Made by a program: the position numbers and the translations under genes
NCBI RefSeq assembly: GCF_009792355.1
Contig: NZ_CP047045.1
Coordinates: 1,302,001-1,366,000, forward strand
Direction of reading: 5' to 3'
Source: Terricaulis silvestris
GTDB taxonomy: Bacteria > Pseudomonadota > Alphaproteobacteria > Caulobacterales > Aquidulcibacteraceae
DNA: 64,000 nt
Shown: positions 3,924 through 61,775 of the stretch, one piece after another
Position numbering within the stretch: the stretch's first letter is position 1
Layout: every line of letters starts with the position of its first letter
Notes under the pieces: generated by a model
Database searches by the model: none
What the model was told of the DNA's origin: nothing
What the model saw: only the letters and a program-made list of their open reading frames with translations

Positions 3924-3932
3924 GGGCGCCAA

Positions 3933-3997
3933 TATGGACCGCCGGCGCCCTCGCCGGCAAACACTGGCGTTGGCCGGCGAGGCGCCGGCGGTCCATA
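3933..3997. repeat. Palindromic repeat, family A copy 1 (TATGGACCGCCGGCG...)
   Basis: An inverted repeat whose left arm begins TATGGACCGCCGGCGCC and whose right arm ends GGCGCCGGCGGTCCATA, with a short loop. Arms are about 25 bases and nearly perfect. It occupies almost all of the space between the M1 peptidase stop and the purD start. Other copies: 49995-50096, 56195-56263, and a variant inside rsmE at 32353-32426. Confidence 0.9.
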
Positions 3998-4003
3998 GTC
4001 AGA

Positions 4004-9635: not shown

Positions 9636-9728
9636 TGCAGGTTGGAGCGCGCGGCTCCGCCGCGCATTTTCACCACACGCTCAATCGCTTGCACCCATGC
9701 GCGGCGGAGCCGCGCGCTCCGACCTGCA
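9636..9728. repeat. Palindromic repeat, family D (GGAGCGCGCGGCTCCGCCGCGC)
   Basis: A near-perfect inverted repeat: the left arm 9636-9667 (TGCAGGTTGGAGCGC...) matches the reverse complement of the right arm 9697-9728 (...GCGCTCCGACCTGCA) with one or two mismatches, around a loop of about 29 bases. It is immediately followed by the 10-base palindrome CAAATATTTG at 9727-9736. It lies in the 496-base gap between xseA and the GNAT gene. Confidence 0.8.
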
Positions 9729-30625: not shown

Positions 30626-30630
30626 TGTCT

Positions 30631-30733
30631 GAGTCATCCCGGCCGACCGAAGGGAGAGCCGGGACCCAGGGATCGTAGAACTCAGTGTTTGTCTCTGGGT
30701 CCCGGATCGCGCTCCGCGCGTCCGGGATGACTC
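30631..30733. repeat. Palindromic repeat, family B copy 2
   Basis: Inverted repeat bounded by GAGTCATCCCGG and CCGGGATGACTC, with an inner GGGACCCAGG / CTGGGTCCC pair. It lies between the ABC exporter stop and the convergent gshA stop and may act as a bidirectional transcript end. Relatives: 2521-2626 and 61588-61687. Confidence 0.85.
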
Positions 30734-30749
30734 TGAAGCCATCGATCGA

Positions 30750-32114
30750 TTAATAAGCGCACGCCTCAAACACGCGCTTCACGTCTCCGCCCCACTCTGT
30801 GCGGTAGCGCTCAATCAGCCGCTCGGCCGGCGTGACGCCGCTCGCCGCAATATCATCCAGCTCCGTCAGAAAATGCGTTTCATCCTGGCCCGAGCCGTCC
30901 GCCTTCGCGCGCGACTTCAAACCCTGCCGCGCTATCGCCAGCGCCGCCTGCGCGATGTTCTGCGCCGAGTTGCCGCGGATCGGCGCGCGCAGCCCCAGCA
31001 CCGGCACGGCGCGGCGCAGGCTTTCGCGATCTTCCGCGGTCCAGCTCTTCACCAGCGACCACGCCGCCTCCAGCGCCGCGTCGTCATAATAAATGCCGGC
31101 CCAGAACGCCGGCAGTGCGCACAGGCGCGACCACGGCCCCGCATCGGCGCCGCGCATTTCGAGATATGTCTTCAACCGCACTTCGGGGAAAATCGTGGTG
31201 AGGTGATCTTCCCAATCCTTCGCGGTCGGCCGCTCACCAGGCAGCGTGGACATCTTGCCGTCCATGAAGGCGCGGAAGCTCTGGCCCGAGCAATCGACGT
31301 ACTTGCCATCGCGATACGCAAAGTACATCGGCACGTCGAGCGCGTACTTGGCGTAGCGTTCAAAGCCCATGCCGTCTTCGAACACGAACGGCAGCATGCC
31401 GGTGCGATCGGGATCGGTGTCGGTCCAGATGTGAGCGCGATAGGAGAGGAAGCCGTTTAGCCGCCCTTCCGCGAACGGCGACGCCGCAAACAGCGCCGTT
31501 GCGATCGGTTGCAGCGCTAGGCCGACGCGAAACTTTTTCACCATGTCGGCTTCGGATGCGAAGTCCAAATTGGTCTGCACCGTACACGAGCGGAACATCA
31601 TCTGGCGGCCAAGGCGTCCGACCTTCGCCATGTAGTCGCGCATAATCTTGTAGCGGCCCTTCGGCATGATCGGGATGTCGTCCAGCGCCCACAGCGGTTG
31701 GAAGCCGACGCCCAGGAAGGCGATGTTCATGTCGTCGCAAACGTCGCGCAGCTGCGAGAGGTGCGAGCCTGTTTCAGCGCACGTCTGATGCAGATGCTCA
31801 AGTGGCGCACCGGAAAGCTCAAACTGACCGCCTGGCTCCAGCGTGATCGACGCCATGCCCTGCTTCAGCGCGATGACGTTTTCGCCTTCGTACGTGCGCT
31901 CCCAGCCGTACTTGTCGGCGAGCTTGTTCAGCAGCGCGCCGATGCCGTTCTCGCCTTCGTAGGGAACGGGTTTCAGCGTGTCGCGATAGAAGGCGAACTT
32001 CTCGTGCTCGGTGCCGATGCGCCAGGTGGAGCGGTCCGGCTTCGGCCCACTCTCCAAATGCGCGACAAGATCGCGAAAGCCCGTCAGCACCGGGGCTGTT
32101 TCAGTTTTGGCCAA
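30750..32114 (-). CDS. gshA: Glutamate--cysteine ligase (GCS2/plant type)
   Basis: GshA makes gamma-glutamylcysteine, the first step of glutathione synthesis. The 454-residue protein has [12 protein letters not shown] near the N-terminus, [34 protein letters not shown] and [13 protein letters not shown], all typical of the alphaproteobacterial/plant enzyme. The best start is a TTG at 32114 preceded by GGGAGGAAGCGC; a GTG at 32159 would add 15 residues rich in Arg and has no such site. Length from the TTG equals the family norm. Confidence 0.93.
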
Positions 32115-32182
32115 GCGCTTCCTCCCGGGGCGTTCTTGGCGGTGATGTGGAGCTTTCACCGCGCCGCCGCAAGGCGCAACGC

Positions 32183-32995
32183 CTACCGCCAGTCGCCCCA
32201 GGTCGACTGAATGACGCTTAACGCTGCGATCACCGCCGTCTCCGCGCGCAAGATACGCGGGCCAAGCGAGACCGGCGTTACAAACGTTAACGCGCGTAGC
32301 ATGCGCCGCTCCTCTGGCGTGAAGCCACCTTCGGGTCCAATCAGAAGCGCGAGCTTACTTGGACCGCCGGCGTCTCGCCGGCCGGCTCCGGCGATGGCCG
32401 GCGAGACGCCGGCGGTCCAAGTAAGCAGTGCTTGCGCAATTGGAGCCGCGCGTCCGCTCTCTCCACCCCAAGCTGCGTTCGCATCATCACCCGCTTCATC
32501 GGCATAGATCAGCGGCCGCGCCGCATCCCAGCCATCGACAATTTTCGCAAGCGATACCGGGTCCATGATCTCCGGCGCGTCGAACCGCTCCGTCTGCTCT
32601 GCCGCCTCGCGCGCAATACTCTGCAATCGATCGAGCCGTACCGTTTCGACGATCGTGCGCTGCGTAATCACTGGGCGTATGCGGCGCACGCCAAGCTCAG
32701 TCGCCTTCTCCACGATCAAATCCGTCGCGTGCCGCTTTACCGGCGCGAACAGCAAATCCAAATCCGGCGTCGCGCGCGCCTCGCGCAACAGTGCGTCCAC
32801 CGCCACTATCATCCCGCGCTTCGTTTTGGCGCTAACCTTCGCGCTCCATTCGCCGTCGCGCGCGTTGAACACGCGAAGCGTGTCGCCTTCATCCAACCGC
32901 AACACAGTGCCGACATGGCGCGCCTGCGCCTCGTCCAGCGCGATCGCGGCGCCGGGCCGTAAATTTTGATCTATCAACAGGCGCGGATTGGCCAT
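32183..32995 (-). CDS. rsmE: 16S rRNA m3U1498 methyltransferase with in-frame repeat insertion
   Basis: RsmE methylates U1498 of 16S rRNA. The 270-residue protein has an N-terminal PUA-like part ([18 protein letters not shown]) and a C-terminal SPOUT knot domain with [43 protein letters not shown]. About 24 residues ([12 protein letters not shown] to AGGPSK) immediately before the SAM-binding LIGPEGG are encoded by a palindromic repeat and are absent from the normal family; the protein is longer than the usual 245-250. The ATG at 32995 is preceded by AAGGGC. Activity with the insertion is likely, because the frame is kept and all motifs are intact. Confidence 0.93.
32353..32426. repeat. Palindromic element (family A variant) inside rsmE
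   Basis: A perfect inverted repeat with 30-base arms (GCTTACTTGGACCGCCGG... / ...CCGGCGGTCCAAGTAAGC) around a 14-base loop, within the rsmE reading frame. Its core GGACCGCCGGCG...CGCCGGCGGTCC is shared with the intergenic family A copies. No stop codon or frameshift is introduced. Confidence 0.92.
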
Positions 32996-33096
32996 GATGT
33001 GCCCTTGCTGCCGCGCTCCGGCGCTCCTTACAAGCCCGCCTCTTGACCCAAGGCGCGGCCAGGCGCTCATTCCGCCCGCCAAAAGCGGAGGGGACG

Positions 33097-49983: not shown

Positions 49984-49994
49984 TGGTGCAGTAC

Positions 49995-50096
49995 AATATG
50001 GACCGCCGGCGCCCTCGCCGGCATCGCTGTTTCAATGTGCATAGTCATGTCCGGATATGGCCGTGCTGGCCGGCGAGGGCGCCGGCGGTCCATATT
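49995..50096. repeat. Palindromic repeat, family A copy 2
   Basis: Inverted repeat bounded by AATATGGACCGCC and GGCGGTCCATATT, with arms of about 28 bases and a loop of about 45 bases. It starts 12 bases after the SURF1 stop and ends two bases before the chosen ATG of the M16 peptidase gene. Confidence 0.9.
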
Positions 50097-50098
50097 TT

Positions 50099-51358
50099 AT
50101 GAGCGAACTCGAACTCATCCGGCTCCCCAACGGCGTCCGCATCGCGCTTGACCCGATGCCCGGCCTTGGCACCGCGTCGCTCGGCGTCTGGCAGCGCGTC
50201 GGCGCGCGCTGGGAGCCGCCGGAACTCAACGGCATTGCGCATCTGTTCGAGCACATGGCCTTCAAAGGCGCGGGTTCACGCGATCCGCGCCAGTTCGCCG
50301 AAGCCATCGAGAACGTCGGCGCCATCATGAACGCCGGCACCGGCTACGAGCGCACTGCGTACTACGCCCGCGTCCTCGCTGAGCATGCGCCGTTCGTGCT
50401 TGGCCTCATCGCCGACGTCCTGTTTGAACCGCACTGGGCGCCGGACGATCTCGAAAAGGAAAAGGGCGTCGTTGCCCAAGAACGCGGGGAAGCCTTCGAT
50501 GCGCCCGACGACCGTATCTTCGAACTGCACCAAGGCGTGCTCTATCGCGGACAGCCGCTTGGCCGCCCCATCCTCGGCGAAGAGGCGACGCTCGCCAACG
50601 TCACCGTCGAAAAGCTCCGCGCTTTCCACGATGCGCACATGACGCCCGAGCGCGTGGTCATCGCCATCGCCGGCGCGTTCGATCGCGACGCGTTTGTGGA
50701 AGCGGCGGAAAAGCGCTTCGGCCATCTCACAGCCCGCGCGCAACAACAGCGCCCAGACGCTCGTCCGCAATCCGGCGCCGCGGGCGAGACCCGCAAGCTC
50801 GAGCAAACCCATCTCGTGTTCTCATGGCCAGCGCCGCCGCAAGGCAGCGACAAGCTCTTCGCCGCGCGTTTGCTCAGCGAAATCTTCGGCGGCGGCATGT
50901 CATCGCGGCTCTTCCAAGAAGTCCGCGAAACCCGCGGCCTCGTTTACGCGATCGATTCCTTCATCGACACGGTCGAGGACGACGGCCGTCTCCACGTCTA
51001 TGCCGGCTGCTCGGCGAAGAACGCCGCCACCGTCGCCACCATCGTCCGCGATCAGCTCGCGCTGATGGCCGAGCACGGCCCGACACCCGCCGAACTCACG
51101 CGCGCCAAGGCCGTCGCGCGGGCGTCGATGTTGATGGGCCTGGAAGCGCCGTCCGCGCGCGCCGAAGCCCGCGTCAGCCAAGTTTTCCTCCGCGACCGCC
51201 TCGTCGCGTTCGATGAAATCCGCGCAAGAATGGACGCTGTCACAGCCGAGGAAATCCAGGCGCTCGCCCGCGCCGCGTTGGAGGGCCCCGCATGCGCCGC
51301 CGCCATCGGCCCTAAGGCGGGGCATGGCGCGCTCGCCGCGTTTGAGGCAAACTCCTGA
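50099..51358 (+). CDS. M16 family zinc peptidase
   Basis: A 419-residue processing-peptidase-like protein. The inverted zinc motif HLFEH (His48, Glu51, His52) lies in GIAHLFEHMAFKG, and the third ligand Glu is expected in KGVVAQERGEAF. The C-terminal half is the second, inactive M16 domain. Such proteins degrade signal or small peptides. The ATG at 50099 follows a palindromic repeat and no Shine-Dalgarno is visible; a start at 50057 within the repeat would add 14 residues. Confidence 0.92.
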   Translation: MSELELIRLPNGVRIALDPMPGLGTASLGVWQRVGARWEPPELNGIAHLFEHMAFKGAGSRDPRQFAEAIENVGAIMNAGTGYERTAYYARVLAEHAPFVLGLIADVLFEPHWAPDDLEKEKGVVAQERGEAFDAPDDRIFELHQGVLYRGQPLGRPILGEEATLANVTVEKLRAFHDAHMTPERVVIAIAGAFDRDAFVEAAEKRFGHLTARAQQQRPDARPQSGAAGETRKLEQTHLVFSWPAPPQGSDKLFAARLLSEIFGGGMSSRLFQEVRETRGLVYAIDSFIDTVEDDGRLHVYAGCSAKNAATVATIVRDQLALMAEHGPTPAELTRAKAVARASMLMGLEAPSARAEARVSQVFLRDRLVAFDEIRARMDAVTAEEIQALARAALEGPACAAAIGPKAGHGALAAFEANS

Positions 51359-56194: not shown

Positions 56195-56263
56195 AATATG
56201 GACCGCCGGCGCCCTCGCCGGCATGCACCGGCGTCAGCCGGCGAGGCGCCGGCGGTCCATATT
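56195..56263. repeat. Palindromic repeat, family A copy 3
   Basis: Inverted repeat from AATATGGACCGCC to GGCGGTCCATATT with a short loop. Its last base is the first base of the rnhA stop codon on the minus strand. It separates the operator region from rnhA. Confidence 0.9.
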
Positions 56264-56697
56264 CACCGCACCGTATCGATCGCCGACCGCGCGAGTTCAT
56301 CAGCGCGGTTGTTCATAACATCGTCGGAATGGCCCTTGACCCATTTCCACGTCACCTCGTGGCGCGCGTTGGCCGCATCGAGCCGCTTCCACAAATCTTC
56401 GTTCTTCACCGGCTTCTTATCGGCTGTTTTCCAACCGTTCTTCTTCCAGCCGTGGATCCACTTGGTCAGGCCATCCATCACGTATTTGGAATCTGTGTGC
56501 AGCCGCACGGTGCTCGGCTTTGTCAAAGCCTCCAGCGCCGAGATCGCCGCCATCAGCTCCATACGATTGTTCGTCGTCGCCGCTTCGCCGCCGGAGATTT
56601 CCTTCTCCGTTTCGCCATAGCGCAATACCGCCCCCCAACCACCCGGACCAGGGTTTCCACTGCAGGCGCCGTCGGTCCAGATATCCACTGTGCTCAT
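56263..56697 (-). CDS. rnhA: Ribonuclease HI
   Basis: RNase HI cuts RNA in RNA-DNA hybrids. The 144-residue protein has the complete active site Asp9 ([12 protein letters not shown]), Glu47 (NNRMELMAA), Asp69 (LHTDSKYV), Asp133 (NNRADELA) and the accessory His123. Length is normal. It is the last of four overlapping genes with ispH, a kinase and a small membrane protein. Confidence 0.98.
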
Positions 56698-61574: not shown

Positions 61575-61587
61575 CGGATGTAAAGAA

Positions 61588-61687
61588 GAGTCATTCCAGG
61601 CGGCCGGAGGCCGATCTGGAATCCAGGGCAAACGCACTCCCGCTGGCCCCGGATTCCAGATCACGCTCCGCGTGTCTGGAATGACTC
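61588..61687. repeat. Palindromic repeat, family B copy 3
   Basis: Inverted repeat from GAGTCATTCCAGG to CTGGAATGACTC with inner GGAATCCAGGG / CCCGGATTCC pair, between argS and the dioxygenase gene. Related to copies at 2521 and 30631. Confidence 0.85.
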
Positions 61688-61775
61688 GTCTTTCTTACAT
61701 GCAGTTCCTCTGCACCGCGCCGTGGCCCCGACTCTGCATGCGTGCGAAATTGGAGTCGTGCTGTGGAAAGCGGTG

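Follow-up and report, generated by a model that had tools for sequence, protein, structure and literature searches.

What does a perfect palindrome do in the middle of an rRNA methyltransferase gene, and how did it get there? The question is raised by rsmE in Terricaulis silvestris, whose genome (G000 below) is a single contig of 3.86 Mb. The gene lies in a stretch of 64,000 nucleotides, here called the window, and was compared with its counterparts in related genomes, numbered in the same way.

A palindrome in the RsmE linker

RsmE of the window is a 16S rRNA methyltransferase whose substrate position we take to be uracil1498-N3. The longest open reading frame (ORF) of the gene spans 32183–33082 on the minus strand, and its start was placed by homology at the MANPRL of position 32995 (Table 1). 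The protein matches the RsmE fold and contains the conserved motifs of the family. A preliminary description, made from the sequence alone, had reported a perfect inverted repeat lying in frame in this gene with the motifs intact, and this holds: the arms, 31 nt each, are 100% complementary with 12 nt between them, the palindrome directly precedes the codons for LIGPEGG, and the reading frame is open throughout. As RNA, the 74-nt hairpin is predicted to fold with −73.9 kcal/mol. The same description credited the insert with about 24 extra residues. That many are indeed encoded, but some native linker has been replaced: the compared loop segment has 41 residues in the window and 23–26 in 12 of the 13 insert-free loops of the genus (the shortest, in G017, has 13), so that the net gain is only about 17 residues.

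An AlphaFold2 model of the window RsmE, built with 54 RsmE sequences, has a mean pLDDT of 88.4. The core of the insert (residues 197–207) falls below 50 and lies between a helix (residues 186–194) and a strand (residues 214–219). Solved RsmE structures match the fold, 4j3c best of all, and the linker is far shorter in the three solved-structure alignments shown. The model suggests that the insert-bearing enzyme keeps its confident fold and carries the insert as a floppy surface loop, and it may well remain active.

Table 1. Features of the window that bear on the rsmE insert
Feature	Position	Strand	Evidence or remark
rsmE, 16S rRNA (uracil1498-N3)-methyltransferase, 270 aa, insert inside	32183..32995	-	ORF, genus-wide homology, PDB RsmE matches
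Family A REPIN-like palindrome, read in frame within rsmE	32353..32426	-	two perfect arms and loop
Arm 1 of the rsmE insert	32353..32383	.	inverted-repeat search
Arm 2 of the rsmE insert	32396..32426	.	inverted-repeat search
gshA-like glutamate-cysteine ligase, next gene, same strand as rsmE	30750..32159	-	name read from sequence
Family A copy	3931..4001	.	2-nt overlap with a minus-strand ORF start, otherwise outside ORFs of at least 150 aa
Family A copy	49990..50099	.	over the start of plus-strand ORF 50057-51358
Family A copy	56195..56265	.	outside ORFs of at least 150 aa

The family A repeat

The core of the palindrome had been assigned to a family of repeats, family A, found elsewhere in the window. 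The assignment is confirmed by matches at three further places in the window (Table 1) and by genome-wide counts far above those of reversed controls. In G000, a 24-nt pattern of the family A core with up to three mismatches matched 59 times, against once for the reversed control, and a 25-mer of the rsmE type matched 20 times, against none. When the 79 arm matches are merged, 48 places result, of which 31 have two arms and 17 a single one; the single-arm places with the poorest fit, at three mismatches, may be chance matches. A family of 48 places is high in copy number, and it is mostly intergenic. Five of the places are within genes confirmed by Pfam or close to the ends of such genes, and others coincide with ORF starts or with ORFs of weak coding signal, placement in or between genes having been judged by coding score. 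A 15-nt arm pattern, run against 61 genomes, has matches in every one of the 30 that belong to the genus (1–285 each), while the 31 from outside it have 0–3, which is within the level allowed by the controls.

A REPIN, as defined in the available part of PMC8049555, consists of two REP sequences in inverted orientation, separated by a spacer that is short and diverse, and can form a hairpin. The 31 two-armed copies of family A are such doublets, with inverted arms and spacers of differing length. Each arm makes up a small hairpin of its own, preceded by the tag GGAC or GGAG, which is present on 30 of the 31 left arms. The tags of both arms agree in 28 of the 31 copies, and the arms agree in 30 of 31 at the arm position that varies between copies; the arms thus change together, which fits the doublet as an evolving unit. 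The 5' tetranucleotide of REP sequences is GT(A/G)G according to the accessible text of PMC3686654. No such tag is found in family A, which is accordingly named REPIN-like and not canonical REP; nor did inspection of the copies in G000 reveal the terminal CGTC of the CGTC class of REP.

The long perfect arms at rsmE might be taken as the mark of a special insertion mechanism, and this was rejected: the ends of family A copies pair to about position 5 and at chance level from position 6 outward, so that the 8-base extension in rsmE is unremarkable among 31 copies. Other inverted repeats were also seen in the window. One, at 61582–61693, has 53-nt arms (79%) with the sequence GTCATTCCAG...CTGGAATGAC and overlaps a minus-strand ORF start; another, at 9636–9728, has 32-nt arms (97%) and lies outside ORFs of at least 150 aa.

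RAYT transposases in the genus

RAYTs were sought through the Y1_Tnp domain, which has no match in the window's own genome. Across the 61 genomes, this one included, there are 44 matches in 25 genomes, 34 of them in 16 of the 30 genomes of the genus. Twenty-four of the 44 genes were examined. In two tree groups, 10 of the 11 RAYTs have a family A arm at the gene or no more than 600 bp from it, three of the ten on one side only; none of the 13 remaining genes does, two of these having been too short to be placed in the tree. The arms flank these RAYTs of relatives in inverted orientation, and in several relatives the family A arm is the end of the RAYT reading frame itself. The frames at L149:1207-1845 and L161:1198-1779, for instance, end in REP-coded tails (..AGEDAGGP and ..SAGEGAGGP), the flanking arm providing the C-terminus of the RAYT. 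Taken with the dispersal of family A, this association lends good support, at the level of sequence, to the earlier proposal that a mobile or amplifying repeat has become protein sequence.

Five relatives have a RAYT no more than 3 kb from rsmE. It lies behind gshA in G001 and G005, before rsmE in G021 and G025, and by a neighbouring gene in G012. A sixth genome, G007, has a RAYT fragment about 4 kb from rsmE. The five RAYTs form one group (SH-aLRT 97 in a quick tree), separate from the other RAYTs of those genomes. About 0.07 RAYTs would be expected near rsmE by chance, and the probability of three or more is 4e-5, a figure to be read with their shared ancestry, which points to one old association more than to five events. 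Beside rsmE in the window there is no RAYT remnant at E 1e-6, and a search at E 5 returned only weak scraps. Just behind the gshA-like gene, at 30628–30736, the window has a repeat of another kind, an inverted repeat with 45-nt arms (80%) that contains GTCATCCCGG; it lies on the gshA side, where G001 and G005 have their RAYTs.

Contents of the linker across the genus

The linker is readable in 28 of the 30 genomes of the genus, the contig of G021 ending in the linker and G028 being without an rsmE match; the sequences from G012 and G013 are partial. Thirteen of the 28 loops are insert-free, including that of G002, which has ordinary length and a short hairpin of its own. The other 15 carry an insert of at least three kinds, all in one linker of about 25 residues before LIGPEGG. 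The segment of the G000 type is thus not carried by all relatives and is not a fixed part of RsmE, which agrees with the preliminary view of it as an addition. The insert-free loops of the genus are joined in this by the 30 non-genus relatives with an rsmE match (of 31 searched), none of which has a long loop as judged from match coordinates, and by the shorter linkers of the solved structures.

Family A fills the linker in G000, G003, G005 and G007, with 3' junction and frame in common, and in G025, in another frame. A C/T-rich hairpin is present in nine genomes (G008, G009, G012, G013, G015, G018, G024, G027 and G029). G010 alone has a CTGAG-TGTCGAAG repeat, a pattern with four matches in its genome and none in the control. 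In L101, a relative of uncertain genus, yet another insert, with a 20-nt inverted repeat, lies at the same place in the linker. That related species carry other repeat kinds in this linker goes beyond the earlier reading of the locus. The C/T-rich class was assigned by eye in G008, G012, G015 and, weakly, G027, and the insert of G009 matches the C/T-rich core pattern. That pattern is a weak probe, with 0–24 matches per genus genome against up to 5 for reversed controls, and a search with a 126-nt dispersed element was therefore relied on. This element matches at rsmE itself in four of the nine C/T-rich genomes (G013, G018, G024 and G029). If overlapping and opposite-strand matches are included, it is matched 16 times in G029 and 29 times in G000.

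Thirteen of the 15 inserts are read through in frame; that of G015 is out of frame, and the contigs of G012 end in the insert. Across the rsmE inserts the junction sequences differ, the 5' boundaries vary by several nucleotides and the frames differ. The suggestion that repeats spread into genes by codon-compatible length is right only in part, since native codons are replaced and G025 reads its family A copy in a different frame. In G015, both rsmE (L183) and rsmA (L222, L238) are out of frame at repeats, which may reflect real inactivation or a hairpin-related sequencing error. The contigs G012:C247, G012:C229 and G021:C13 break off within the rsmE linker, which is what a dispersed repeat at that point would be expected to cause, and short-read MAGs may hide further inserts at contig ends.

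No comparable insert was found in the RsmE body, where alignments of 184 and 57 columns face 183 and 57 query residues, or in GshA, used as the insert-free control across relatives, where 474 columns face 469 residues; these alignments comprise single best matches that cover at least 80% of columns in 27 or 28 genomes, and inserts at the ends could escape them. The presence of family A in rsmE follows its copy number: it is found there in five of the eight genomes with at least 50 arms and in none of the 20 with fewer (Fisher p 0.0006, for a threshold chosen after the counts were seen and a test that ignores kinship). Yet G022, which has the most family A arms (285), has an insert-free rsmE.

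Family A copies in other genes

In G000, family A also lies in frame in the inter-domain region of dnaX (G000:C1:1250738-1250860, L061), in rsmA just before NLPYN (G000:C1:2240431-2240494, L077), close to where an mtaB-like gene ends (radical SAM, UPF0004; G000:C1:2140097-2140157, L191) and, as a single-arm remnant, in the inter-domain region of mutL (G000:C1:1156846-1156869, L197), the names being assigned from Pfam matches; together they make up a group of core genes within one genome. The rsmA gene was read in 17 genomes of the genus: 12 are without a family A copy, four have one at a common junction (G000, G003, G007 and, as a remnant, G005) and G015 has a separate copy. Copies that overlap nothing but a called ORF start (e.g. 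2146083 and 2070434) may be outside the gene proper and were not taken as intragenic. The gene count further excludes an ORF of 655 aa that spans the copy at 289122, together with the related ORFs L070 and L198; none of the three has a Pfam match. In L070:1263-1919 and L198:997-1836, family A occupies about the same place, between ..SFRCF and SAWPLAER, which is perhaps a second landing site.

Changes in the linker on the tree

The linker states were placed on a tree of GshA and of RsmE without its linker, with 28 rows, 27 of them with states; G012 and G013 were left out. At least 10 changes are needed with four states and at least 8 when insert is set against none, gains and losses being indistinguishable on this tree. 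These counts are conservative, since all C/T-rich inserts were treated as one state. Shuffled labels gave a mean of 11.7 changes, and 22 of 200 draws were as low as the tree. Kinship thus explains little of the pattern, with some clustering of states by kinship possible. In one clade of six species (support 100/99), two have family A, three a C/T-rich insert and one none. Horizontal exchange of whole rsmE alleles was also considered and gained no support: the RsmE-only tree, of low resolution, does not group by insert type. It needs 12 changes, whereas the GshA tree and the combined tree need 10 each.

Origin of the insert

The best explanation for these observations, and in our judgement a probable one, is that a REPIN-like copy mobilised by a RAYT landed in a tolerant linker, random seeding being followed by selection that spares tolerant sites. 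The segment would be one copy of a dispersed element composed of two inverted mini-palindromes with GGAC or GGAG tags, and a RAYT-type HuH transposase would have mobilised that element in this lineage or its ancestors. It would have landed in frame between the helix of residues 186–194 and the following strand, and the extra residues, if translated, would be taken up as a floppy surface loop, leaving the fold of the enzyme, and probably its activity, intact. The same linker takes other repeats in related species, and its content appears to change fast. Random seeding would be raised by high copy number, perhaps also by an adjoining RAYT locus, and purifying selection would afterwards spare tolerant sites only; such tolerance could explain why the linker is filled repeatedly. 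Counted against this explanation are the missing Y1_Tnp in the genome itself, the single junction of four family A inserts and the empty linker of G022. It is rather doubtful that the linker beside the RAYT acts as a landing pad, where several repeat families enter, leave and replace one another within about 25 codons and selfish DNA goes on rewriting the surface loop, with the RAYT seeding locally and the linker serving as a safe harbour in a densely packed genome.

The junction and frame that are identical in G000, G003, G005 and G007 would also follow from one ancient insertion of family A in their ancestor, with later losses and replacements, in which case family A would not enter this linker with any special frequency. 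The inserts of G003 and G007 are clearly one insertion (102 nt each, 85 identical), and the four genomes also have the rsmA copy at one junction. Reads that fit the excision of REP doublets have moreover been reported in Pseudomonas, in the part of PMC3116915 that was available. This history would require losses or replacements in G004, G024, G027, G029, G001/G011/G020, G014 and G019/G023, as counted on a tree blind to gain versus loss, and it leaves the differently framed copy of G025 and the other repeat kinds unexplained; we regard it as a genuine possibility, though not the expected one. A DNA target site of the mobilising enzyme, which would steer several repeat families into the linker, is unlikely. 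It could explain why the ends of the inserts fall no more than a few codons from the strand that precedes LIGPEGG, and it would suit the RAYT lineage adjoining rsmE in five relatives and the 23 family A arms found in 17 rsmE regions against 4.6 expected, a count that includes the rsmE inserts and the RAYT-flanking arms. Filtering for tolerant sites fits better than a strict target because junctions and frames at rsmE differ, as do the 5' boundaries; one target would also have to serve different repeat kinds, and the other intragenic copies of family A lie likewise in linker-like places.

The hairpin might instead be kept for its RNA, which could act on rsmE or the gene after it by pausing, processing or attenuation. 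It is very stable, and all five family A loops and five of the seven C/T-rich loops tested (of nine) fold below codon-shuffled controls, with z from −2.7 to −10; RNA effects of REP/BIME elements are known in E. coli, as far as the available sources go. Most insert-bearing loops, though not all, can be told from insert-free ones by their folding: the inserts of G010, G018 and G027 are of no unusual stability (z −0.6 to −0.1), and insert-free loops reach z −2.4 (G017) and −2.3 (G022). With 13 of 28 relatives insert-free, and no Rfam family match in the window between 29000 and 36000, such a role of the RNA is very unlikely. It is highly improbable that the insert-bearing genes are broken or are artefacts of assembly: against the out-of-frame rsmE and rsmA of G015 and the contigs of G012 and G021 that end in the linker stand 13 of 15 insert-bearing loops read through in frame and, in the window, an rsmE that is intact, belongs to a genome of one contig, and encodes a protein with the RsmE motifs and a confidently predicted fold.

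Tolerant-site filtering of a RAYT-mobilised repeat thus remains the preferred reading. One genus offers empty sites, several repeat kinds and apparently rapid turnover at one codon stretch, with a likely mobiliser lineage adjoining. Strain collections and bench experiments can thereby be used to test gain, loss and tolerance, and the rsmE linkers form a set of naturally occurring loop insertions in a single enzyme.

Comparison with known systems

Family A resembles the REPIN/REP and RAYT (TnpA_REP) system in its inverted palindrome doublets, variable spacer, many copies and position beside RAYTs. It differs in its GGAC/GGAG tag, in the lack of a Y1_Tnp match in G000 and in having one copy that is protein-coding. 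Intragenic REP dimers are a further close parallel. In the available text of PMC3733652 they are described as coding in frame for 20–30 residues, often in genes for DNA repair and RNA modification, and insertion at the same site is described there for one case, recB of two Xanthomonas species. The rsmE insert is likewise a repeat doublet that codes for residues in frame; RsmE is unnamed in the main text of that paper, as far as available, and here several repeat kinds occupy one linker within one genus.

The preliminary description had compared the insert with the palindromic elements of Rickettsia. The analogy is apt for the outcome, palindromic repeats in frame within genes, at sites that are solvent-exposed in the Rickettsia and Wolbachia elements (RPE and WPE); the element itself resembles a REPIN. 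In the portion of PMC3767692 available, Rickettsia and Wolbachia elements are described in the same region of one gene, hotspots are left open, and each Rickettsia ortholog of an affected gene carried an insert. The present case differs in belonging to another bacterial group and in showing empty linkers alongside linkers with different contents. Nematomorph mitochondria also have perfect inverted repeats within protein-coding genes, as described in the accessible part of PMC6649704; these are alike as coding palindromes and differ in being mitochondrial. No description of repeat inserts in RsmE was found by title or abstract among the top-ranked papers of the literature searches, which leaves absence from print unproven. 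In-frame palindromic repeats are thus of a known kind, represented by Rickettsia RPEs and intragenic REPs. Judged by the top-ranked papers, the new part is the turnover of several repeat families at one linker with a resident RAYT lineage alongside.
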